A stretch of 64,000 nt of DNA from Methanolinea sp. (GTDB taxonomy: Archaea > Halobacteriota > Methanomicrobia > Methanomicrobiales > Methanospirillaceae): NCBI GenBank assembly GCA_024518585.1, contig JANIHI010000003.1, positions 62,001-126,000 of the forward strand. Reading direction: 5' to 3'. A program made the position numbers and the translations under genes. Positions within the stretch are counted from its first letter, which is position 1. Every line of letters starts with the position of its first letter. Under the pieces are notes generated by a model. That model was not told the DNA's origin and made no database searches. It saw only the letters and a program-made list of their open reading frames with translations. This document shows, piece after piece, positions 13,658 to 33,371 of the stretch.

Positions 13658-14266
13658 TCATGAGTCTCCTTTCAGCTTCCTGATCACCCCAACGACCGAG
13701 AGGCCTTTTTTCCGGGCCTCTGCCAGTGCGGTCGGGTGCCCCTGGATCCCCCCATACTGGTCCATGTTATTGGCAATGATGTTGTCATAGTATTCGAAAC
13801 CGAGGGTGTTGAAAAATGCGGTCACAGCAGGGAATGCCGCATCGAACACGTTGTCCCAGGAGAGGCCGGCCGTCGAGATGAAGATGCCCTTGTGTCTCCT
13901 GACGTGGTCATCAGAAAAGTACATCGTCTTTAGGATGAACTTCCTTGCCCACAGGAACTGGGCCCTGTCTATCAGCCCCTTCAACTCGGCCGTTATCCCC
14001 ATGCTGTAAATGGGCGATGCGACGGCCAGGCAGTCTGAAGAGAGGATGCGGTCAAAGAGGGGGATCGCATCGTCCCGGACGATACATTCCCCTGTCTTGT
14101 GGCAGGCGTTACACCCTCGGCAGGGGGTGTAGGAAAGGTCCTTGAGGACGACTTTTTCGACGTCTCCTCCCCCTTCCTCTGCACCCGCCAAAAAGGCGTC
14201 AAGGAGTCGCTCCGTGTTCCCGTGCCGGTGCGGGCTCCCCGAAAGACCGATCACCCGGACGGGCAT
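13658..14266 (-). CDS. Iron-sulfur flavoprotein (Isf family), second of a tandem pair
   Basis: 202 residues from the ATG at 14266 (MPVRVIGLSGSPHRHGNT); the longer open frame to 14371 is the tail of the preceding gene's region. FMN phosphate loop G-S-P-x-x-x-G-N-T at 10-18. Compact cysteine motif C49-x2-C52-x2-C55-x5-C61, as in Methanosarcina Isf, which binds one 4Fe-4S cluster near FMN and reduces O2 or H2O2 using ferredoxin. It starts one base after its upstream paralogue stops, so both are in one operon with the peroxiredoxin. Known Isf proteins are homodimers; the electron donor here is inferred. Confidence 0.9.
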   Translation of the reverse strand: MPVRVIGLSGSPHRHGNTERLLDAFLAGAEEGGGDVEKVVLKDLSYTPCRGCNACHKTGECIVRDDAIPLFDRILSSDCLAVASPIYSMGITAELKGLIDRAQFLWARKFILKTMYFSDDHVRRHKGIFISTAGLSWDNVFDAAFPAVTAFFNTLGFEYYDNIIANNMDQYGGIQGHPTALAEARKKGLSVVGVIRKLKGDS

Positions 14267-14267
14267 G

Positions 14268-14882
14268 TCACTCTCCCCGTCTCTTCCGGAGTTCTCCCAC
14301 AACGTCCCGCCCCAGCTGCCCGGCATCCCGCTCCGCGGTCGGGTGGGAGAGGATGGCACCCTTCTCGTCAACGCCGTTGACCATCAGGTAACGGATGTCC
14401 CGGTCGGGAATATCAACGACGTGGAAGAAACACTTCACCGACGGGACGGCACCGTCAAACACGTGGTCCCATTTCTGACCGGCCGTAGAGAGGAAGACCC
14501 CCATCCGCGTCCCCTTCCGCTCGGGGGGGACGATCGGGAGTTTCAGGACGTATTTCCTCGACCTGAAGACCTGGAACCGGTCGATCAGGGCCTTTGCCTG
14601 GGCGCAGATTCCCATGCAGTAGATCGGGGCAGAGAGGATGATGCAGTCGGCATCGATGATCCTGTCGTGCAGGTAGTCCATCCCGTCGCGCTGGACGCAC
14701 TTGTTCAGTTTCTCGCAGGCGTTGCATCCCCTGCACGGGTTCACATTTGCCTCTGTGAGGGCGACTTTCTCGATGGCAACCCCTCCCTCCTGCTCCATGG
14801 CAGAGATGACCCAGTCAAGCAGCGTTTCTGAGTTTCCGCCCCGCCGCGGGCTGCCGGCAAAGGCAAGGACCTTTATCTCCAT
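14268..14882 (-). CDS. Iron-sulfur flavoprotein (Isf family), first of a tandem pair
   Basis: 204 residues from the ATG at 14882 (MEIKVLAFAGSPRRGGNS). FMN loop at 10-18 and a complete C50-x2-C53-x2-C56-x5-C62 4Fe-4S motif. It is clearly related to the following gene (same motif spacing and common I-x-x-M-G-I-x-A segment) and probably arose by duplication. A triple 17-bp repeat lies directly upstream. An upstream in-frame ATG (14930) would extend through that repeat and is rejected. Confidence 0.9.
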   Translation of the reverse strand: MEIKVLAFAGSPRRGGNSETLLDWVISAMEQEGGVAIEKVALTEANVNPCRGCNACEKLNKCVQRDGMDYLHDRIIDADCIILSAPIYCMGICAQAKALIDRFQVFRSRKYVLKLPIVPPERKGTRMGVFLSTAGQKWDHVFDGAVPSVKCFFHVVDIPDRDIRYLMVNGVDEKGAILSHPTAERDAGQLGRDVVGELRKRRGE

Positions 14883-14917
14883 CACTGACCCTCTTTGGTC
14901 CCGGAGCTGAAAAAATG

Positions 14918-14968
14918 TTGGAATCGACAAGGTGTTAGAATCGACAGGGTGTTGAAACCGACAGGGAT
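14918..14968. repeat. Three tandem 17-bp direct repeats upstream of the Isf pair
   Basis: Consecutive units 14918-14934, 14935-14951 and 14952-14968 follow the consensus TTGGAATCGACAGGGTG, with two to four changes per copy. They lie 36-86 bases before the ATG of the first Isf gene, in the 114-base gap after the peroxiredoxin gene. Spacing of 17 bp (about 1.6 helical turns) and position suggest a regulator-binding array or a small expansion; there are no spacers, so this is not CRISPR. Confidence 0.7.
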
Positions 14969-14996
14969 GGCAGCAGGAAAAGGGGGAGGGGGAGGA

Positions 14997-15638
14997 TCAG
15001 ATCTTCCTGAAGCAGAGGTACCAGTCCTTGCACTCGTACCCCTCTGAGAGGCGCCGGTCCATCTCTTCCTTGTTCTTTGGTGCGGGGACAACGACCTTGT
15101 CTCCCGGCTGCCAGTTTGCGGGGGTCGCAACCCCGTACTTGTCGGTGGTCTGGAGGGACTTTACCAGGCGGACGATCTCGGGCATGTACCGCCCGGCCGT
15201 GAGCGGGTAGTAGATCATGGCCCTGAGGATCCCCTTGTCGTCGATGAAGAAGACTGCCCGGATTGCCGCCGTGCTGCTCTGGCCGGGGTGGATCATCCCG
15301 TACTTCCGTGCAACCTTCATGTCGAGGTCCGCGATGATAGGGAACGGGATGTCGACTCCCATCTTCTCCTTGATATTTCGGATCCACGCGAGGTGGGAGT
15401 AAACCGAATCGATGGAAAGTCCCATCAGCTGGACGTTGAGGGCTTTCAATTCCTCGGCAATCGCGGAGAAGGCCATGAACTCCGTGGTGCACACCGGGGT
15501 GAAATCTGCCGGGTGCGAGAAGAGGACAAGCCATTTCCCCTTGAAGTCAGAGAGCCTGACCGTTCCATGCGTGGTGAGGGCCTCAAAGTCAGGGGCCGGC
15601 TCGCCAAGGATTGGCATTGACCCGGTTTCGCCGCACAT
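14997..15638 (-). CDS. Peroxiredoxin, Prx6/archaeal AhpC-like
   Basis: 213 residues. Peroxidatic cysteine C50 lies in H-P-A-D-F-T-P-V-C-T-T-E-F, with the Arg of the active site later. A Prx6-type C-terminal dimerisation domain contains two more cysteines, C203 and C209 (Y-E-C-K-D-W-Y-L-C-F), matching archaeal enzymes that use C-terminal cysteines for resolution. It reduces H2O2 and alkyl peroxides. ATG 15638 has GAGGCGGA just upstream; an alternative ATG is at residue 8. It lies in a reverse-strand run: zinc ribbon, desulforedoxin, CMD protein, this gene, two Isf genes. The glutaredoxin-AhpF fusion at 18.7 kb is a candidate reductant. Confidence 0.93.
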   Translation of the reverse strand: MCGETGSMPILGEPAPDFEALTTHGTVRLSDFKGKWLVLFSHPADFTPVCTTEFMAFSAIAEELKALNVQLMGLSIDSVYSHLAWIRNIKEKMGVDIPFPIIADLDMKVARKYGMIHPGQSSTAAIRAVFFIDDKGILRAMIYYPLTAGRYMPEIVRLVKSLQTTDKYGVATPANWQPGDKVVVPAPKNKEEMDRRLSEGYECKDWYLCFRKI

Positions 15639-15644
15639 TCCGCC

Positions 15645-15989
15645 TCACTCCGGCATGAGCTCGTCGAGCTGTGCCTTTCCGTACACGTAGGCAGGCATGC
15701 CTGCAAGGAGGAAGGCGACCCGCAGGGCTTCCTCGACCTCTTTCTTGGAGATCCCCAGGTTCTTTGCCCCGGCAAGCTGTGCCCTCGTCGCATGCTGGTC
15801 ACGCAGGGACGCCGCGATTGCGATCGCGATCAGCTTCTTCGTCTTCCGCGTCAGGGCACCATCGTCCCAGATGTGACCTTCCAGCTTCATCACCATCTCG
15901 TACATCTGGGGGTCCTTTTCTGCCAGTTCCTTGAAGAACTTCGGGACCTTGCCGATCATCCTTTCCAGGTCTTTTGTGTCCTTTACCAT
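15645..15989 (-). CDS. Carboxymuconolactone decarboxylase/AhpD-like protein without cysteines
   Basis: 114 residues, all-helical CMD domain: L-T-R-K-T-K-K-L-I-A-I-A-I-A-A-S-L-R-D-Q-H-A-T-R-A with A-x-x-L-G-I-S-K-K-E-V-E-E-A. In AhpD-type members the segment after the first helix is C-x-x-C-x-x-H; here it is R-D-Q-H, and the whole protein has no cysteine. The conserved His remains (about residue 66). Thiol peroxidase activity like AhpD is therefore unlikely despite its place six bases before the peroxiredoxin gene. It starts seven bases after the desulforedoxin stop, so it is in the same operon. Confidence 0.87.
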   Translation of the reverse strand: MVKDTKDLERMIGKVPKFFKELAEKDPQMYEMVMKLEGHIWDDGALTRKTKKLIAIAIAASLRDQHATRAQLAGAKNLGISKKEVEEALRVAFLLAGMPAYVYGKAQLDELMPE

Positions 15990-15996
15990 GGGACCA

Positions 15997-16122
15997 TCAC
16001 TTCACGAGTTTCATCGGCTGGCCACAGCAGACAAGCTCTCCGCCGCCGACTTCCTTGACCACAACAACGTTTCCGCAGATCTCGCATTCAAAGACCTGCC
16101 CTTCCTTTGTCACGTTTACCAT
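15997..16122 (-). CDS. Free-standing desulforedoxin
   Basis: 41 residues, start ATG at 16122: [10 protein letters not shown] then [13 protein letters not shown]. The spacing C13-x2-C16 ... C32-C33 is exactly the desulforedoxin centre I (Fe(Cys)4, two adjacent cysteines), which normally forms the N-terminal domain of desulfoferrodoxin or stands alone as a homodimer. No superoxide-reductase domain follows; the stop comes directly after L-V-K. It is probably a small electron carrier for the peroxidases around it. A purine-rich ribosome site (GGAG) is about 11 bases before the ATG. It is short enough to be missed by length-filtered gene finders. Confidence 0.9.
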
Positions 16123-16270
16123 TTGCTTCTCATCTCCGTCATCTCTTCCCTGGTCTCCCGGTACCTTTCCGCTCCCGCAGACATGGTTCCCGGGGGTTAT
16201 TTCCTGCCCTGGTGGGGCATTTCCTCTTGCGTTACACCCCCTGGGTGCTGAAGAGGTAAAAAAATGGGGG

Positions 16271-16507
16271 TTAAATGTTACTCTTTCCGCGCTTGGGCGG
16301 GTTCATCGCATCCTCCGGGGTCTTGATGTCCGGGCGGATGTGGGTCATCGGGAAACACTGGTACTCTTCACAGGCACACTGGGGGCATTTTCTCAGATCC
16401 TGTTCTGCCTTGTCGAGCACGAACTCACGCCCGCAGTCAAGGCAGACATACTTGCCGGGACCGACTTTCTGCCCGGCTTTCACGTTCTCGGTCAGATCTA
16501 TCACCAC
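16271..16507 (-). CDS. Zinc-ribbon / rubredoxin-like small protein
   Basis: 78 residues, GTG start at 16507. Two cysteine knuckles, Y-V-C-L-D-C-G at about 20-25 and R-K-C-P-Q-C-A-C near 40-46, are separated by about 16 residues with F-V-L-D-K. This is the pattern of a zinc ribbon or short rubredoxin. The tail is polar. TATA-like GATAAATAA (about 16529-16537, reverse strand) lies about 25 bases before the GTG, so the transcript may be leaderless. It is the first gene of the reverse-strand redox run, 148 bases before desulforedoxin. Whether it binds Fe or Zn is open. Confidence 0.75.
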
Positions 16508-16656: not shown

Positions 16657-17259
16657 ATGGGATTCCGGATCGTGGGGGTGCTCGGCAGCCCCTTGGCCGG
16701 CGGAAACACGGCAAAGCTGCTCGAAAGGGCACTTGCAGGTGCCCGGGACGCCGGGTGCGAGGTCGAACGGATCGACGTGTATGACCTTACGTTCCGTCCG
16801 TGCAGGGAGATCTTCTACTGTCGCGAACACGAGACCTGCGCCATGAAGGACGACATGATCCCCGTGTACAGGGAGTTCGCGGAACTGGACAGCCTCATCG
16901 TGGCGACACCCGTCATGACCATGGGGATTCCGGGAGCGTTGAAATCCTTCATGGACCGGTTCCAGGTCTTCTTCATGGCCAAGTACATGAGGAAAAAACC
17001 CCTCGTCCCGGAGGAGAAGAGGGCCCATCGCCGCGGCCTTTACATCGGTATATCGGGGATGGCAGTCCCGTACGTCTTTGACGGTGCAAAGCTCACGATG
17101 AAGGCCTTCTTCTCCATAATCGACGTGGAATACTGGGACGAGCTGCTGACGAATGACATGGACACGATACGCGACATCTCCACCCGCCCCGACATCCTCG
17201 ACGCGGCCTACCGGAAAGGCTTTCGCCTCGGGGAACTCCTCCACCAGGAAGGCCCCTGA
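16657..17259 (+). CDS. Isf-like flavoprotein with incomplete cysteine motif
   Basis: 200 residues; FMN loop G-S-P-L-A-G-G-N-T at 10-18 and overall similarity to the Isf pair at 13.6-14.9 kb (P-x-M-x-M-G-I-P-G-A-L-K-S-F-M-D-R). Aligned with those, its cysteines are C49, C55 and C61, while the second ligand (position 52) is Ile in C-R-E-I-F-Y-C. A standard four-Cys 4Fe-4S cluster therefore cannot form from this motif alone. It may bind a 3Fe cluster, use another ligand, or act as a plain flavin reductase. It converges on radC with one base between. Confidence 0.87.
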   Translation: MGFRIVGVLGSPLAGGNTAKLLERALAGARDAGCEVERIDVYDLTFRPCREIFYCREHETCAMKDDMIPVYREFAELDSLIVATPVMTMGIPGALKSFMDRFQVFFMAKYMRKKPLVPEEKRAHRRGLYIGISGMAVPYVFDGAKLTMKAFFSIIDVEYWDELLTNDMDTIRDISTRPDILDAAYRKGFRLGELLHQEGP

Positions 17260-17929: not shown

Positions 17930-18118
17930 GGAATCGTGGAAAGAACGGTGGGAGCCTGACGATAAAAAAGGGGATGGTTCATCCCCCGTGGATCCCGGCC
18001 ATGTAACCCGGTTTTTCTCTTCACCCGGTCATCACGTGGCACCATGACCACTGGCCCACCCCTCCCTGGCCCCACCGGGATGGATATGTTTTTACACCGC
18101 CCCTCCCGATGTATGACC

Positions 18119-18619
18119 ATGGCAACGATGGAAAATGCAATGGAGGCTTTTGCAGGCGAATCGCAGGCAAACCGCAAGTATGCTGCATTCGCCGAGCAGG
18201 CCGAGTCGGAAGGGTTCAGGAATATCGCACGCCTCTTCCGGGCTGCATCCGAGGCCGAGGCGATCCATGCAAAGAAGCTCCTCAAGGCGATGGGAAAGAT
18301 CCATTCCACGAAGGAGAACCTTGCCGGCGCCATCTCGGGGGAGACCCACGAATATACCGAGATGTACCCCGGATTCCTTAAGCAGGCCGAGGCCGAGAAG
18401 AAGAGTGATGTTGCCCTCGTCTTCACCTACGCGATGAAAGCCGAGGAGGTGCACGCCACACTGTACAGGGAGGCCCAGAACAACCTCAACCATGGCCAGG
18501 ACATGTCGAACCGGACGGTTTACCTCTGCCCCGTTTGTGGGAACATCTTCCTTGGCAACGCCCCGGAGAAGTGCCCTATCTGCATGGCAGTGCGCAAGGT
18601 CTTCAAGACAGTGGAGTAA
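18119..18619 (+). CDS. Rubrerythrin
   Basis: 166 residues from the ATG at 18119 (MATMENAMEAFAGESQANRKY); an ATG two codons earlier (18113) is also possible. A four-helix ferritin-like domain carries the di-iron ligands (E-S-Q-A-N-R-K-Y, E-A-E-A-I-H, E-Y-T-E-M, K-A-E-E-V-H). It is followed by a rubredoxin domain with C-P-V-C-G and C-P-I-C. Rubrerythrin reduces H2O2 to water in anaerobes. A TATA-like TTTTTA (about 18089-18094) lies 25-30 bases before the ATG with no ribosome site, so the mRNA is probably leaderless. It is followed by the glutaredoxin-reductase fusion 110 bases downstream. Confidence 0.95.
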   Translation: MATMENAMEAFAGESQANRKYAAFAEQAESEGFRNIARLFRAASEAEAIHAKKLLKAMGKIHSTKENLAGAISGETHEYTEMYPGFLKQAEAEKKSDVALVFTYAMKAEEVHATLYREAQNNLNHGQDMSNRTVYLCPVCGNIFLGNAPEKCPICMAVRKVFKTVE

Positions 18620-18729: not shown

Positions 18730-19881
18730 ATGCCCAGGGTGACTGTCTATTACACCCAGAACTGCCCCTATTGCCGCATGGCAAAGGCGTACCTGGAACG
18801 ACACGGCGTCGACTACATGGCGATCGACGTTGGTTCCGACCGGGAACAGGCCAAAAAGATGGTCGAGCTCTCGGGGCAGTACGGTGTTCCGGTCATCACC
18901 GTTGATGACGAGGTCATCATCGGCTTTGATGCCCAGAGGTTGAACGAACTCTTTGGTACCGCAAAGGGAGAGGACGTCACCGACGTCCTCATCATCGGTG
19001 CCGGGCCCGCAGGACTGACCGCCGCGGTCTACTGCTCGCGCAAGATGCTGAAAACAACAGTCGTCTCTGAGAACATCGGGGGGCAGGCCCTGGAGAGCTG
19101 GGCCATCGAGAATTACATGGGGTACCGGATGGTCTCGGGGGCCGACCTCATGCAGAAGTTCGAGGAACAGGTCAGGAGCGAACAGAACATTCACCTCGAA
19201 CTGGACCGCGTCCGGTCTCTCCAAAGAGAAGGGGACCTGTTTGTCGCAGAAACCGCGACCGGCAGGACAATCCTCGCAAAGACAGTGATCCTTGCCCAGG
19301 GCAAGAGACCCCGCAAGCTCGGCGTCGAGGGAGAGGAGCGGTACCTCGGGCGGGGGCTCTCGGTCTGTTCCACATGTGACGGCCCCCTCTTCCGCGACAA
19401 GGTCGTTGCCGTTGTCGGGGGTGGAAACTCGGCCTTGCAGACGGCAATCGAGATGAGCAAGATTGCCCGGCAAGTCCACCTCATCGTCCGGAGCACGATA
19501 AAGGCTGACCCCTCCTACGTGAAGCAGTACGAGGAGAGGAAGAATATCACGACGTACCTCCACCACACCGTCTCTGGCCTCCAGGGGAACGGGATGCTGA
19601 CCGGTATCACTGTCCGGGACGAAAAGAGCAAAAAAGAGACGACGATTCCCCTCGACGGGGTCTTTGCAGAGATCGGCTGGATCCCGAACACCGATTTCCT
19701 GGACGGGCTCGTGCCCCTCAACGACCAAAAAGAGGTGATCATCGACATCAACTGCACCACGGCGACCCCCGGCCTCTTTGCAGCAGGGGACGTGACAAGT
19801 ATCCGGACAAAACAGATTATTACGGCCGCGGGGGAGGGTGCCAAAGCAGCCCTCGAGGCCTATGCCTACCTCACCCGGTGA
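18730..19881 (+). CDS. Glutaredoxin-AhpF/thioredoxin reductase-like fusion flavoprotein
   Basis: 383 residues. Residues 1-78 are a glutaredoxin domain with C12-P-Y-C15 and G-V-P-V-I-T. Residues 83-383 are a thioredoxin-reductase fold: FAD loop I-I-G-A-G-P-A-G, redox pair C213-S-T-C216-D-G-P-L-F, NAD(P) loop V-V-G-G-G-N-S-A-L, and G-L-F-A-A-G-D-V-T. The end, K-Q-I-I-T-A-A-G-E-G-A-K-A-A-L, is closest to bacterial AhpF rather than TrxB. AhpF has a two-fold thioredoxin N-terminal domain; a single glutaredoxin takes its place here. The H-R-R-x3-R motif for NADPH is absent (V-R-S-T-I-K-A-D), so NADH or another donor is possible. Probable partners are the peroxiredoxin and rubrerythrin. Confidence 0.92.
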   Translation: MPRVTVYYTQNCPYCRMAKAYLERHGVDYMAIDVGSDREQAKKMVELSGQYGVPVITVDDEVIIGFDAQRLNELFGTAKGEDVTDVLIIGAGPAGLTAAVYCSRKMLKTTVVSENIGGQALESWAIENYMGYRMVSGADLMQKFEEQVRSEQNIHLELDRVRSLQREGDLFVAETATGRTILAKTVILAQGKRPRKLGVEGEERYLGRGLSVCSTCDGPLFRDKVVAVVGGGNSALQTAIEMSKIARQVHLIVRSTIKADPSYVKQYEERKNITTYLHHTVSGLQGNGMLTGITVRDEKSKKETTIPLDGVFAEIGWIPNTDFLDGLVPLNDQKEVIIDINCTTATPGLFAAGDVTSIRTKQIITAAGEGAKAALEAYAYLTR

Positions 19882-23390: not shown

Positions 23391-24863
23391 TCAGGAAGAA
23401 ACGGTCCCTTTTGCCTTCTTCCGGTCCTTTTCCCGGTACCCCTCGAGGAGGATGGAGGTGACGTTCCTGACGGGGCGGTCGGTGTGCTCGGAGATGTGGA
23501 ACTCGCAGAAGGGGCAGGAACTTACCACGATCTCGGCACCCGTCTTCTCGATCTCCTTCCGGCGGTTCTCTGCGAGGGCCGCTGCCACCTCCGGCATGCC
23601 GGAGCGGACACCGCCACCGGAGCCACAGCAGATGGATGGCATCTCGACCAGCTCGACCACCTGGGTGATAAGTTCCCGGGGCTGGTCCCGTATCCCCTGG
23701 CCGCGGAGCAGGTGGCAGGGGTCATGGTAGGTCGCCTTCACAGGGAGCCTTGCCGGGGGTTCGATCCCGAACTTGGTCAGGACTTCGTTGATGTCCATGA
23801 CCCGGAATGGCGTCCTGTAGTCATTCTTGAGGGTCGACCCGCAGCCGGCACACATCGTGAGGACGGTGTCGATTTTCCGGAAGACGAAGGCATCGATGTT
23901 CCTCTTCTTGAGCGTGTCGAGGAAGTCGACCTGGCCGGTACGGATGAGGGGGGACCCGCAGCAGACCTGTTCCCGGGGAATGATAACCCGGATACCGTTC
24001 CTTTTGAGGACCTCCATCGCATCGCGGGCAGTCTGGGGGAGGCGGCCGTTGTACATGCAGCCGACAAAGAAGCCGACAGTTGCCTTGACCGGACCGTCGG
24101 GCTCGATGACCTCGGGGGCGTCCTCGAGGAACGTCGGGCCTGTCCTGACGATGCTCCTCCCTGTCTCGCGGACCAGGCGGGCCACCTCCTGGTGGCGGGG
24201 AAGCGTCAGGCCCTCCCTGTTTGCGAGCGCCCGCAGTTTCTCAATGGCCTTGCCAGGGATCTCGATATCTTTCGGGCAGACCTTCCAGCAGGCCTGGCAC
24301 GAGGTGCAGGTAAACAGGCCGTGGGAGACTGCCTCCCTGACCCTGTCTCCCCCCTTGTCCCGCGGGTCGAGCGCAAGGCGCAGTTCCTGGCGCATCGCCG
24401 TCGGGCCGTCGAATGACGCGACATCCATCGCCGGGCAGACGGAGACACAGCAGACGCACTCGATGCAGCTGCGCAATGGCTTGAGGAGCTCGACCTTCTC
24501 CCTGTCGGGGACCTCCGGCTCTCCGCGCGGGCATATGCGGGGGAGTGTCGCGAGGAACGGCTGCAGGTCAACGACCAAATCCTTTTTGATCGGGAGGTCG
24601 AGGGGTTCGACCGTCATTCCGTCTCGTGCCTCTTCCATGCAGGCCAGGCCGGGTTCGCCGTTTATCCGGACGGCACAGCTCCCGCACTGGCCAGCCCCGC
24701 AGCAGTACCGGAACGCCAGGGTCGGGTCGATCTCGTCGTGGATGGCCTGGAGGACGTGGAGGACACGGGCACCCTCGTTGACCTCCACGACGTAGTTCTG
24801 GTAATGGGGTTTTTCGTCTTCTTCAGGATCAAAGCGGAAGACGCGGGCATGAACTTTCATCAT
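23391..24863 (-). CDS. tfrB: CoM/CoB thiol:fumarate reductase subunit B
   Basis: 490 residues from the ATG at 24863, overlapping the tfrA stop (ATGA). N-terminal plant-type 2Fe-2S domain: C-C-G-A-G-Q-C-G-S-C-A-V and a later Cys. Two 4Fe-4S motifs follow: C-I-E-C-V-C-C-V-S-V-C-P and C-T-S-C-Q-A-C-W-K-V-C-P. The C-terminal half is HdrB-like, with two cysteine-rich (CCG-type) blocks at V-C-C-G-S-P and I-C-C-G-S-G-G-G. It oxidises CoM-SH and CoB-SH to the heterodisulfide and passes electrons to TfrA for fumarate reduction. This unique methanogen enzyme feeds succinate into the reductive side of the incomplete TCA pathway. Cytoplasmic; no membrane anchor. Confidence 0.96.
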   Translation of the reverse strand: MMKVHARVFRFDPEEDEKPHYQNYVVEVNEGARVLHVLQAIHDEIDPTLAFRYCCGAGQCGSCAVRINGEPGLACMEEARDGMTVEPLDLPIKKDLVVDLQPFLATLPRICPRGEPEVPDREKVELLKPLRSCIECVCCVSVCPAMDVASFDGPTAMRQELRLALDPRDKGGDRVREAVSHGLFTCTSCQACWKVCPKDIEIPGKAIEKLRALANREGLTLPRHQEVARLVRETGRSIVRTGPTFLEDAPEVIEPDGPVKATVGFFVGCMYNGRLPQTARDAMEVLKRNGIRVIIPREQVCCGSPLIRTGQVDFLDTLKKRNIDAFVFRKIDTVLTMCAGCGSTLKNDYRTPFRVMDINEVLTKFGIEPPARLPVKATYHDPCHLLRGQGIRDQPRELITQVVELVEMPSICCGSGGGVRSGMPEVAAALAENRRKEIEKTGAEIVVSSCPFCEFHISEHTDRPVRNVTSILLEGYREKDRKKAKGTVSS

Positions 24864-26467
24864 TCCCTCACCACCGTCTCGATACCCGACCGCGTGAGCG
24901 ACTGGTAGGTATGGCCGTACGGAGAGGTCTGGGCGTCCCAGGCCTGGACGACGTCCCTCCTCGTGTGGGCTCCCCGGCTCTCCTTGCGCAGGAGGGCCCC
25001 CCGGACGACCAGTGTGGCGGTCAGCAGCATGTTCTGCACTGTGCAACACTCGCCGAGGTTCTCCCGTGTCCGGGCAAGGAGGGGCAGGGAAGAGAGGTGG
25101 GCGATCACACCGAGGGTCTTTTCGAGGTCCCGTGCCGTCCGGAATATCCCTGCCCCCTCCCACATCGCCGTCCTGAGCGACCGGACCACGGTTGAGGGAG
25201 GGACTTCTCCCCCGAGGAATAGAGAGAGGCGCTCTTCCTGTGCTTCAATAGCTTTTTCACCGATGCGCACGTCCCGCCTGGGTGCCCTCCCTGCAGATTC
25301 ACCGGCCCGTTTCCCAAAGACCTGGGTGTCAGCAAGGGCATTTCCACCCAGGCGGTTTGCCCCATGCACGCCCCCCGTCACCTCGCCGCAGGCATAGAGG
25401 CCCGGCAGAGTCGTCTCTCCGTGGGGTGAAATGCGCAGGCCACCCATGATGTGGTGGGCGGTCGGGGCCACTTCCATGGGCTCCTCCCGGATATCAACCC
25501 CGAACTTGAGGAACTGCTCGAGCATCACGGGCAGCCTCTCCTCGATCTGCTGCCGTGGCAGGTGGGTGACATCGAGGTAGACGCCCCCGTGTGCAGTCCC
25601 GCGTCCCTCCAGGATCTCGGTGGCGATAGCCCGGGAAACGACGTCGCGCGTCGAGAGTTCCTTTTTGACAGGGTCGTATTTCTCCATGAACCGCTCGCCG
25701 AGGGCATTTTTCAGCACACCCCCCTCGCCACGGACCGCTTCCGTGATGAGTCTCCCCCTCGCGTCGTAGGGGTAAACAGCACCGGTCGGGTGGAACTGGA
25801 CCATCTCCATGTCTATCAGCTCGGCCCCTGCACGGTACCCGATGGCAAACCCGTCACCCGTGCCGCTTGACGAGTTCGTGGAGATATCGTAGATCTGCGT
25901 GCCTCCCCCCGTTGCGAGGACGGTTGCATCGGCCCGGACTGCAACGATGTTGCCCTTTCCATCGAGGCCGAGTGCCCCGACCACCCTGCCGCTTTCCACA
26001 ACAAGGTCAAGAACCGTCACTTCGCTGATGACCTTGACGTCGGTGGATGCCAACCGCTCGATGAGTGTCACCATCATCTCGTGGCCCGTCCGGTCACCGG
26101 CGTAGCACGTCCGCGGAAAACTCTGGCCTCCAAAGGGCCTCTGGGCGACCTCACAGCAGTCTGTCACGTCAAAGACAGCACCCCAGCGAAGGAGGTCTTC
26201 CATCCGTTCCGGGGCTTCAGCAACGAGGATACGGACGAGTTCAGGGTCGTTGAGGTACGATCCGCCCTTCATCGTGTCCCCGTAGTGAATCTCGCACGAG
26301 TCCTGTTCCCGGAGGACAGCGTTGTAGCCGCCCTCGGCCATGGGCGTGCACCCCCCCTTGCCGGCGAGGGTTTTGGAGAGGAGGATGGTCTTCCCATATC
26401 CCGACGCCTCGATGGCCGCCCTGACCCCGGCCCCGCCACTCCCGATCACGAGGACGTGGCAATCCAT
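24860..26467 (-). CDS. tfrA: CoM/CoB thiol:fumarate reductase subunit A (flavoprotein)
   Basis: 535 residues from ATG 26467, beginning MDCHVLVIGSGGAGVRAAIE; an ATG six codons upstream (26485) is possible. FAD loop G-S-G-G-A-G, H-x-x-x-x-x-G-G substrate segment (A-H-H-I-M-G-G-L-R-I), T-G-A-V-Y-P, and a C-terminal helical domain with F-R-T-A-R. It is homologous to FrdA/SdhA and to the methanogen Tfr flavoprotein. It reduces fumarate to succinate with electrons from TfrB. A TATA-like element is centred 24 bases before the chosen ATG, which favours a leaderless start at 26467. Divergent from lysC. Confidence 0.95.
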   Translation of the reverse strand: MDCHVLVIGSGGAGVRAAIEASGYGKTILLSKTLAGKGGCTPMAEGGYNAVLREQDSCEIHYGDTMKGGSYLNDPELVRILVAEAPERMEDLLRWGAVFDVTDCCEVAQRPFGGQSFPRTCYAGDRTGHEMMVTLIERLASTDVKVISEVTVLDLVVESGRVVGALGLDGKGNIVAVRADATVLATGGGTQIYDISTNSSSGTGDGFAIGYRAGAELIDMEMVQFHPTGAVYPYDARGRLITEAVRGEGGVLKNALGERFMEKYDPVKKELSTRDVVSRAIATEILEGRGTAHGGVYLDVTHLPRQQIEERLPVMLEQFLKFGVDIREEPMEVAPTAHHIMGGLRISPHGETTLPGLYACGEVTGGVHGANRLGGNALADTQVFGKRAGESAGRAPRRDVRIGEKAIEAQEERLSLFLGGEVPPSTVVRSLRTAMWEGAGIFRTARDLEKTLGVIAHLSSLPLLARTRENLGECCTVQNMLLTATLVVRGALLRKESRGAHTRRDVVQAWDAQTSPYGHTYQSLTRSGIETVVRE

Positions 26468-26485
26468 AACCTCGGCTGACCGCAT

Positions 26486-26496
26486 CTTATTATAAG
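26486..26496 (-). promoter_or_regulatory. TATA-like box for tfrAB
   Basis: CTTATAATAAG on the reverse strand lies 19-29 bases before the tfrA ATG at 26467, the usual TATA-to-start spacing for a leaderless archaeal mRNA. A second TATA-like TATATGA further upstream would similarly serve the ATG at 26485. Confidence 0.4.
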
Positions 26497-26546
26497 GTGC
26501 GTCATATACGTACATAAAGAGCTTGTAAAGGACAGTGTGAGCCCAA

Positions 26547-27947
26547 ATGAGGTTTTTAATGAAATTTGGTGGCACTTCCGTTGCAGATGGAGGAAGTGTC
26601 TCCCGCGTCGTGGACATCATCGACTCCTGTTACCGGGCCGGAAACGAAGTTGCAGTCGTTGTCTCAGCCCAGAGGGGGGTGACGGACCAGCTGATTGCCA
26701 TCGCGTCCGAACTGGCCAACACCCCCGATTCCAACGAGATCGACCCGTTCATCAACTCCCTGCGTGTCCGGCATGGAAAGGTCCTGCTCGAGACGGCAGA
26801 GGACTATGCCGACGAGGTTGGGCTCCTCCTCGAGGAGCAGCTCTGCAACCTGGAAAACATCCTTTCTGCTGTGCAAAACCTGCGGGAGCTCACCCCCCGG
26901 TCCCGTGACTACATCATCACCTTTGGCGAGCGGCTCAACAGCCTCGTCGTCTCGGCGGCACTCAGGCAGAGGGGCATCCCGTCCACCACGCTCGACGGCT
27001 GCGAAGCCGGGATCGTGACCACGGCAAACCACGGGGAGGCCGTCGCCATCCCGGCGAGCGAGGGCAGGATCAAGAGCAGGGTCCTCCCGCTCCTGACCAG
27101 CTCTGTACCCGTGATCATGGGTTTCATGGGGTGCACGGAAAAAGGGGTGGTCACGACCCTCGGGAGGTCGGGATCCGATTACTCGGCTGCAATCATCGGT
27201 GCTGCAATCGATGCCGACGAGATTATCATATGGACCGACGTGGACGGGATCATGACATCGGACCCGCGCATCATCCCCGATGCCCGCGTCATCCCGACAA
27301 TCTCGTACCACGAGGTGATGGAGCTCTCCTACTTCGGGGCCAAGGTCATGCACCCACGGTCCATCGAACCTGCCATGAAGAAGGACATCCTCGTCCGTGT
27401 CAAGAACACGTTTCACCCGGACCACCCCGGGACAGCGATTGTCCGGGGCCAGAAGAAGGACACGCGGGTCGTCAAGGCGCTCACCTACATCGAGAAGGTC
27501 GCCCTCGTCAACATCTGCGGGGCGCAGATGATCGGGAGGCCGGGCGTCGCCAAGGCCATTTTTACCCTGCTCGCCGACAGGGACATCAACGTGATGATGA
27601 TCTCCCAGGGTTCATCAGAGGCAAACATCACGCTTGTCATCGACGAGAGCCAGGCCGAGGCCGCGGCGGACGCCCTCTCGGTCCTCGTGGCCGAGGGCAG
27701 GGTCCGGGAGGTGACGACCAACACCGATGTCTGTGCCGTTGCCGTTGTCGGCGCCGGCATGGCGGGAGCGAGGGGGACGGGGGGAAGGATATTTTCGGCG
27801 CTGGGAAAGGGCGGCGTCAACGTGATGATGATCTCCCAGGGCTCGTCGGAGGTCAACATCTCCTTCGTCGTCACGAAGGCAGACGGGCCCAGGGCAGTCC
27901 GGATACTCCACGACGAGTTCCGGCTCTCCGAGGAGGACGATGAGTGA
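26547..27947 (+). CDS. lysC: Aspartate kinase with tandem ACT domains
   Basis: 466 residues. Amino-acid-kinase domain about 1-300: M-K-F-G-G-T-S-V-A, I-T-F-G-E-R-L, and T-L-G-R-S-G-S-D-Y-S-A-A. Two ACT regulatory domains (about 310-466) each carry I-N-V-M-M-I-S-Q-G-S-S-E, the Lys/Thr-sensing segment. It phosphorylates aspartate, the first step to Lys, Thr, Met and Ile. The first ATG is at 26547; MKFGGTSV four codons on is an alternative. It is divergent from tfrAB and overlaps purM by eight bases. Confidence 0.95.
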   Translation: MRFLMKFGGTSVADGGSVSRVVDIIDSCYRAGNEVAVVVSAQRGVTDQLIAIASELANTPDSNEIDPFINSLRVRHGKVLLETAEDYADEVGLLLEEQLCNLENILSAVQNLRELTPRSRDYIITFGERLNSLVVSAALRQRGIPSTTLDGCEAGIVTTANHGEAVAIPASEGRIKSRVLPLLTSSVPVIMGFMGCTEKGVVTTLGRSGSDYSAAIIGAAIDADEIIIWTDVDGIMTSDPRIIPDARVIPTISYHEVMELSYFGAKVMHPRSIEPAMKKDILVRVKNTFHPDHPGTAIVRGQKKDTRVVKALTYIEKVALVNICGAQMIGRPGVAKAIFTLLADRDINVMMISQGSSEANITLVIDESQAEAAADALSVLVAEGRVREVTTNTDVCAVAVVGAGMAGARGTGGRIFSALGKGGVNVMMISQGSSEVNISFVVTKADGPRAVRILHDEFRLSEEDDE

Positions 27948-32945: not shown

Positions 32946-33371
32946 ATGGAAGACGAGGAACTGCAGCGAATCAGGGAAAAGAAGCTTCGCGAGCTCGAAG
33001 CCCGGCTTCTCCGGAACCGCGACGGAGAACCCACCGTGCCCGTCCACGTCATCCCTGTGGACGAGGCGAACTTCCGCCCCCTCCTCTCGCAGCACCCGCG
33101 GCTTGTCATTGATTTCTGGGCGGAATGGTGTGGCCCCTGCCGCATGGTTGGGCCCATCATCGAAGACCTCTGCCAGGAGATGGCAGGGCGGGTCAGTTTC
33201 GGGAAGTGCAATACCGACCAGAACCCCCGGCTGGCCGCCCGGTTCGGGATCTCTGCAATCCCCACCATCCTCCTTTTCAGGGATGGCAGGCTGATCGACA
33301 GGATTACCGGGGCGTATCCCCGGGAGGCGCTGAAGGCGCGGATCGCACGTGCATACGGTATTTCCCCCTGA
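32946..33371 (+). CDS. Thioredoxin with N-terminal helical extension
   Basis: 141 residues from ATG 32946. An N-terminal charged helix (E-E-L-Q-R-I-R-E-K-K-L-R-E-L-E-A-R, about 3-20) precedes a classic thioredoxin fold with W-C62-G-P-C65-R-M and the cis-Pro I-P-T-I-L-L-F. The helix may give coiled-coil dimerisation or a partner site. The upstream open frame (from 32784) runs across the tRNA and is rejected. TATA-like ATATCAGTATA directly precedes the ATG. It probably reduces the peroxiredoxins or other targets; no reductase is adjacent. Confidence 0.92.
   Translation: MEDEELQRIREKKLRELEARLLRNRDGEPTVPVHVIPVDEANFRPLLSQHPRLVIDFWAEWCGPCRMVGPIIEDLCQEMAGRVSFGKCNTDQNPRLAARFGISAIPTILLFRDGRLIDRITGAYPREALKARIARAYGISP

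Follow-up and report, generated by a model that had tools for sequence, protein, structure and literature searches.

Architecture of the fusion protein

The window analyzed here, a stretch of 64,000 nucleotides from Methanolinea sp., encodes a protein in which an N-terminal glutaredoxin domain (Pfam PF00462, residues 4-63, 60.7 bits against a cut-off of 22.9) is fused to a flavoprotein core of the thioredoxin reductase (TrxR)/AhpF kind (Pyr_redox_2, PF07992, residues 85-370, 142.4 bits against a cut-off of 26.1; Table 1). The four cysteines of its two CxxC sites (C12, C15, C213 and C216) are invariant in all 18 aligned relatives, as are G90, G92, P93 and G95 of the FAD-binding motif, and C213/C216 are kept in every one of the 56 Methanomicrobiales fusion cores. 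The C-terminal stretch TKQIITAAGEGAKAAL is similar to YKQIIIATGEGAKASL of AhpF. A sequence-only reading of this DNA had described a single CPYC glutaredoxin followed by a FAD/NAD(P) core with CSTC and an AhpF-like C-terminus, a composition that the open reading frame, the Pfam matches and this C-terminal similarity bear out. The gene is not an assembly artefact, since the same protein is present in 59 of the 61 nearest genomes (see below).

Among the NCBIfam models, the AhpF model (TIGR03140) matches the core only, with 299.6 bits against a cut-off of 502.9, and the core scores 294.9 bits with the TrxB model (TIGR01292), below its cut-off of 343.45. The first 74 residues fall slightly below the cut-off of the GlrX_YruB model (TIGR02196; 82.9 bits against 88.55), as does the fused glutaredoxin with the Uxx-star model (NF041212; 61.2 bits against 66). 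Its CPYC active site fits the CP[YW]C pattern that is common in the Cp9 group.

Table 1. Features of the fusion gene, its neighborhood and related loci. Positions are those of the window unless a locus is named.
Feature	Position	Strand	Evidence or remark
Grx-TrxR/AhpF-like fusion gene	18730..19881	+	383 aa plus stop; ATG to TGA, complete ORF
Glutaredoxin domain, YruB/Cp9-like, residues 1-76	18730..18957	+	PF00462; TIGR02196 82.9 bits; fold order in model
CPYC active site of glutaredoxin, C12/C15	18763..18774	+	sequence; invariant 18/18
Short linker, ~residues 77-83	18958..18978	+	between helix 68-75 and strand 84-89
FAD-binding GAGPAG, residues 90-95	18997..19014	+	sequence; alignment of 18
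CSTC redox site of flavoprotein core, C213/C216	19366..19377	+	56/56 cores
GGGNSA dinucleotide-binding motif, residues 230-235	19417..19434	+	conservation in 56 cores
RSTIK, R254-K258, where TrxB has the 2'-phosphate motif HRRx3R	19489..19503	+	conservation in 56 cores
Rubrerythrin gene, upstream neighbor	18044..18619	+	PF02915, PF21349 (Pfam); below NCBIfam cut-offs
Prx6-type peroxiredoxin, candidate electron acceptor	14997..15638	-	PRK13189 311.6 bits, cut-off 211; Pfam
Thioredoxin (WCGPC), candidate acceptor	32946..33371	+	TIGR01068 109.2 bits, cut-off 96.8; 13 kb away
Upstream cluster	13658-16507 and 16657-17259		see text
SdhB/TfrB-like and SdhA/TfrA-like ORFs	23391-26620	-	by eye
Thioredoxin and Fno, abutting genes in locus L172	2151-2456 and 1498-2175	-	
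TGA codon in loci L051, L060, L067 and L069	codon before 682, 6028, 667 and 6028, respectively		
Tandem fusion-gene copies in locus L163	460-4332		see text

Distribution of the fusion

A search of the 61 nearest genomes of the order Methanomicrobiales recovered the fusion in 59 (E<=1e-30). All but two of these matches take in at least part of the glutaredoxin; the exceptions are a stop-containing fragment of 125 residues in G009 and, in G004, the latter half of a copy split between frames. The two genomes without a match (G013 and G029) belong to one genus of the same family and are metagenome-assembled genomes of 85% and 62% completeness; with TIGR01292 at E<=1e-20, the former has no match and the latter a single one of 73 bits. 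At E<=1e-30, a separate TrxB was found in none of the 61 genomes. Among 246 genomes drawn across the phylum, which overlap the 61-genome set, all 45 Methanomicrobiales show a match that runs from residue 1-3 to residue 381-383. One member of the order (G241, a single-contig genome) has an in-frame TAG in its fusion gene at match residue 48, where its relatives have Gln50, which may reflect a pseudogene, a sequencing error or recoding. Another (G043) carries tandem copies of the fusion gene with 52% and 60% identity to that of the window.

Among the matches listed from outside the order, most begin near residue 80, eight take in the glutaredoxin only by reading past one or two stops and hence represent adjacent in-frame genes (G092, G077, G202, G071, G138, G250, G240 and G109), and three extend to it without a stop (G140, G156 and G221). 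Of 149 genomes from the phylum to which the Pelotomaculum genome belongs, 67 were matched at E<=1e-55, and in two of them (G393 and G357) the match spans the glutaredoxin in one frame. The literature titles and abstract openings that we searched yielded no glutaredoxin-TrxR fusion of Methanomicrobiales, which we do not take as a claim of absence from print.

Glutaredoxins encoded beside the reductase

Separate glutaredoxin genes next to related reductases were recovered across several lineages. Of 17 Chloroflexota loci, 16 have a glutaredoxin ORF whose end precedes the reductase core by 8-144 nt, and the remaining locus (L061) begins within the reductase; adjacent glutaredoxins are also found in Bacillota and in other archaeal loci. 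Three of the four separate partners that were scanned exceed the YruB cut-off of 88.55 (99.6, 100.4 and 97.4 bits) and the fourth, from L104, lies slightly below it (85.6 bits); a profile of the fused glutaredoxin detects separate partners of the clade defined below at 1e-27 or better. Such glutaredoxin ORFs adjoining reductase cores indicate an old partnership of the reductase with a YruB/Cp9-type glutaredoxin, the two being joined into one chain in Methanomicrobiales. One Chloroflexota genome (G273) additionally has a second reductase, of the type with the HRRx3R motif (L142), that has no glutaredoxin beside it.

In four of the 16 Chloroflexota partners (L051, L060, L067 and L069), a TGA codon occupies the position of the first active-site cysteine and is followed by P-x-C. 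We predict that this TGA, at the position of the catalytic C12, is a probable selenocysteine in a UPxC pattern; RNA folds computed for a SECIS element at these four loci gave z-scores of -0.18, -2.16, -1.91 and -3.28. The YruB and Uxx-star families (TIGR02196 and NF041212; the latter mentioned in the available part of PMC13188914) supply the glutaredoxin type, with probable selenocysteine forms beside the sister reductases, while the domain studied here differs from them in being fused, in having cysteine instead of selenocysteine and in scoring slightly below both cut-offs.

Phylogeny of the reductase core

We computed two trees of the reductase core, a quick one with 93 rows and a careful one with 53, after dropping three distant rows (L002, L129 and L137), cores shorter than 250 residues, identical cores and many of the close fusions from the order; further rows of the 93, among them L099, L100 and that of Sulfolobus, are not part of the 53-row tree. 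In the 53-row tree, a clade of 37 rows with support of 100/99 unites 15 fused proteins, 12 reductases with an adjacent glutaredoxin, seven AhpFs and three solo cores. The HRR-type reductases lie outside it, including those of family f8 from the same phylum, which also have a redoxin-like ORF upstream. The fusions of Methanomicrobiales form a single group within the clade (13 rows, 99/98), which in the best tree joins the reductases with adjacent glutaredoxins, outside AhpF, at a weak 86/84.

That the core is AhpF-like and distinct from standard TrxB, in line with the proposal made from the sequence, is supported by the clade shared with AhpF, by the rejection of a clade of the 13 fusions with five TrxB rows (AU p 6.4e-10) and by AhpF being the source of the top three structural matches (see below). 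A standard TrxB bearing a stray domain is ruled out by the same test and by the lack of HRRx3R. A sister relationship of the fusion and AhpF is not rejected (AU p 0.22), and neither is one origin for the 15 fusions inside the clade (p 0.175). The fusion of glutaredoxin and reductase nevertheless probably happened more than once, because two Bacillota fusions group with AhpF (83/86 in the 53-row tree) and the fused proteins L099 and L100, which come from other families of archaea, fall outside the clade in the 93-row tree; given the position of these two, fusion alone is no mark of the clade.

Structure model and relation to AhpF

An AlphaFold2 model built from 18 sequences is of moderate quality (pLDDT 78, pTM 0.69), for which reason we make no claim on fine docking. 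Its N-terminal domain has the glutaredoxin-type order beta-alpha-beta-alpha-beta-beta-alpha and is followed by the reductase fold, with a flexible linker (pLDDT <50 at residues 79-81). The top three PDB matches by E-value in Foldseek are full-length AhpFs aligned over 405-413 columns; these matches have rmsd values of 13.7-20.2 and TM-scores near 0.53, which point to a domain placement unlike that of AhpF, and several TrxBs have better TM-scores, up to 0.69, on the core. In VIA-align, which mainly covers residues 79-383, AhpF and TrxB are not separated (best Z 29.7 vs 30.2).

The fusion resembles AhpF in having a tethered thioredoxin-fold domain with a CxxC site ahead of the FAD/NAD core, in its CDGPL motif and in its membership of the same supported clade; AhpF has two N-terminal thioredoxin folds, whereas the fusion has one of about 76 residues. 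The glutaredoxin domain finds no match at E<1 in any of the seven AhpF rows. Tblastn with the whole fusion against three plasmid AhpFs (H1-H3) gives alignments that begin at residues 10, 10 and 3 and run to residue 364, and on the strength of these the redoxin domains of the fusion and AhpF may be distantly akin.

Donor-site and docking motifs

The sequence-only reading had taken the missing HRRx3R motif as an argument against ordinary use of NADPH. The motif is indeed gone, with LIVRSTIKADP standing where TrxB has VxxxHRRDxxR, but the loss is partial: among the 56 Methanomicrobiales cores, a count without L099, L100, L145 and L150, which are fused rows of genomes outside the order, R254 is kept in 55 and a lysine or arginine at position 258 in 54. 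We take the spacing of R254 and K258 to be that of R177 and R181 in E. coli TrxB. The dinucleotide-binding motif is equally well preserved, with G230, G232 and A235 in 56/56 and G231 and N233 in 55/56 cores. A basic residue at either the 254 or the 258 position is absent in all 17 Chloroflexota rows, and AhpF shows (L/V)(L/I)E(F/Y) in this stretch. The alignments indicate that HRRx3R is gone from the clade and that the archaeal fusions keep, or have regained, an R-x3-K/R pair. With R254, K/R258 and GGGNxA conserved, the argument against NADPH was too strong; NADPH is a possible donor, and an AhpF-like use of NADH is equally possible.

Downstream of the core CxxC, most fusions have CDGPL(F/Y), like all seven AhpFs, whereas six TrxB rows have FF or AF. 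CDGPL does not mark AhpF-like docking reliably: it also occurs, as CDGPLF, in the HRR-type reductases L093 and L142, and in a further six HRR-type rows, archaeal or other, a proline stands there too or the residue varies; the motif is accordingly weak evidence on the docking partner. The GRG/GKG motif of the thioredoxin contact is kept in 53 of the 56 cores (R in 45, K in 8, H in 3).

Gene neighborhood and candidate acceptors

The sequence-only reading had also placed a Prx6-type peroxiredoxin and a rubrerythrin nearby, and both identifications were confirmed. By raw count, 39 of the 60 order loci (58 genomes) have a same-strand rubrerythrin gene upstream of the fusion at a distance of 78 to 2258 bases, with representation in all six families (21/32, 4/4, 1/4, 3/5, 5/5 and 5/10); two of the 21 loci without it hold less than 150 bases of upstream DNA. 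By eye, rubrerythrin and the fusion look like separate transcription units. The peroxiredoxin of the window is found within the flank in 17 of 21 order loci, mostly from close relatives, and three of the four misses concern contigs that begin within about 1 kb, leaving L046 as a true miss. Its cysteines are at positions 50, 203 and 209, with C203 and C209 C-terminal, presumably the arrangement of those Prx6-type enzymes of archaea whose resolving cysteines are C-terminal.

The peroxiredoxin is part of an upstream cluster, preserved in many related loci, that also comprises three flavodoxin-fold/FMN-reductase-like ORFs (by eye), a CMD-family protein and a zinc-ribbon protein. Downstream, the adjacent SdhB/TfrB-like and SdhA/TfrA-like ORFs are likewise near the fusion in many related loci. 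Elsewhere, the genome encodes a second WCGPC thioredoxin in addition to that of the window, two further glutaredoxin matches and two matches to the ferredoxin-dependent FTR-beta family, one of them with an internal TAG. Fno, the F420H2:NADP reductase, is present in 59 of the 61 nearest genomes of the order, and of 31 Fno loci that were read from the 59 genomes matched, 14 have an abutting thioredoxin gene, including that of this genome. This adjacency suggests that NADPH made from F420H2 could be a source of thiol reductant.

Predicted electron path and alternative readings

The closest described system is Cp34/Cp9/Cp20 of C. pasteurianum: according to the available part of PMC3720550, the gene of Cp9, a YruB-type redoxin of a group with mostly CP[YW]C, is flanked by cp34, which encodes an NADH-dependent TrxR, and cp20, which encodes a peroxiredoxin; Cp9 carries electrons between the two proteins. 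The likeness, drawn to Cp34 by its description in that source, consists in a TrxR-like flavoenzyme, a YruB/Cp9-type glutaredoxin and a linked peroxiredoxin acceptor; Cp34 and Cp9 are two separate proteins, whereas the fusion is one archaeal chain. With TrxB (TIGR01292), it shares the fold, CxxC and GGGxxA, and differs in lacking HRRx3R and mostly FF, in the rejected grouping and in the fused glutaredoxin. From these comparisons, the fusion most likely works like Cp34 plus Cp9 and like AhpF while being classified as neither. We favor, as the probable reading, a one-chain, AhpF-like redoxin reductase of the Cp34/Cp9 type with one thioredoxin fold instead of two. Electrons would pass from NAD(P)H, either NADH or NADPH that Fno might supply from F420H2, to FAD, thence to C213-C216 and on to C12-C15 of the tethered glutaredoxin, which would reduce the peroxiredoxin and probably other disulfide proteins too.

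One alternative is that the fusion is a true AhpF that lost its first thioredoxin fold. AhpF belongs to the same clade, its sisterhood with the fusion is not rejected by the AU test, it provides the best Foldseek match by E-value, and the plasmid AhpFs align from near the start of the fusion; these alignments, together with CDGPL not being exclusive, slightly weaken our preferred reading and slightly raise this one. We still judge it quite improbable, given that the best tree places the fusion with glutaredoxin-adjacent reductases, if weakly, that the AhpF model scores far under its cut-off and on the core only, and that the glutaredoxin, which finds no match at E<1 in the seven AhpFs, detects separate partners of the clade. 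Nothing here shows an origin by trimming of AhpF, and the glutaredoxin is YruB/Cp9-like. As an F420H2-dependent reductase like Mj-DFTR, the fusion would have lost HRRx3R because deazaflavin replaced NADPH, in keeping with the missing motif and with the host order consisting of F420-rich methanogens. Both are methanogen TrxR-like flavoproteins without HRRx3R. Low-Mr reductases are sorted by their pyrophosphate and 2'-phosphate motifs in the available part of PMC5627308, where TRi has a degenerate pyrophosphate motif and CpFTR and Mj-DFTR have less conserved residues at that site. The fusion, compared with Mj-DFTR by that description only, has a fused redoxin and an intact pyrophosphate motif, unlike the weakened one of these three, and keeps GGGNxA together with R254/K258; the accessible text of PMC8498797 lists DFTR for Methanococcales only, and Fno would provide NADPH from F420H2 in 59 of the 61 nearest genomes. 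We regard this reading as highly improbable, and these observations lend direct use of F420H2 no support.

A further alternative, which we consider unlikely, is that the fusion acts as a general thioredoxin reductase, the only FAD-containing TrxR of its genome, mainly for free thioredoxins, with the glutaredoxin as a relay or accessory disulfide reductase. It is the sole strong TIGR01292 match of its genome (295 bits, the next having 78), a search of the 61 nearest genomes recovered no separate TrxR at E<=1e-30, the genome has two WCGPC thioredoxins, the thioredoxin-contact motif is largely kept, and the abutting of thioredoxin and Fno points to an NADPH-thioredoxin link. Against this, the canonical FF has mostly given way to PL(F/Y), as in AhpF, a weak objection since L093 and L142 share it, and the two FTR-beta matches, one with its internal TAG, could serve the thioredoxins. 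The compact peroxidase reductase envisaged from the sequence alone is in line with the linkage to rubrerythrin and peroxiredoxin genes, but the protein may do more than reduce peroxidases, as the fusion is order-wide and without a strong rival of the TrxR family in its genome. More tentatively, and as a doubtful possibility, Methanomicrobiales might do without the usual free TrxR and use the fusion as the flavin hub of a thiol network, fed by NADPH from F420H2 or by F420H2 itself and serving peroxiredoxin, rubrerythrin-linked defense and thioredoxins.

Implications

The two-protein Cp34/Cp9 and AhpF systems are already known; the order-wide, single-chain archaeal form is a further variant of this kind. 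If our preferred reading of it as a one-chain redoxin reductase is true, it would provide Methanomicrobiales, hydrogen-using methanogens of wide occurrence, with a defined flavoenzyme pathway by which thiols are reduced and peroxides removed. The core tree also places AhpF as a single branch within a broader clade of reductases with glutaredoxin partners, whose forms include gene neighbors, probable selenoprotein pairs and fusions. This makes it testable how a reductase and its redoxin are united in one enzyme, and whether NADH, NADPH or F420H2 is the carrier that feeds it.
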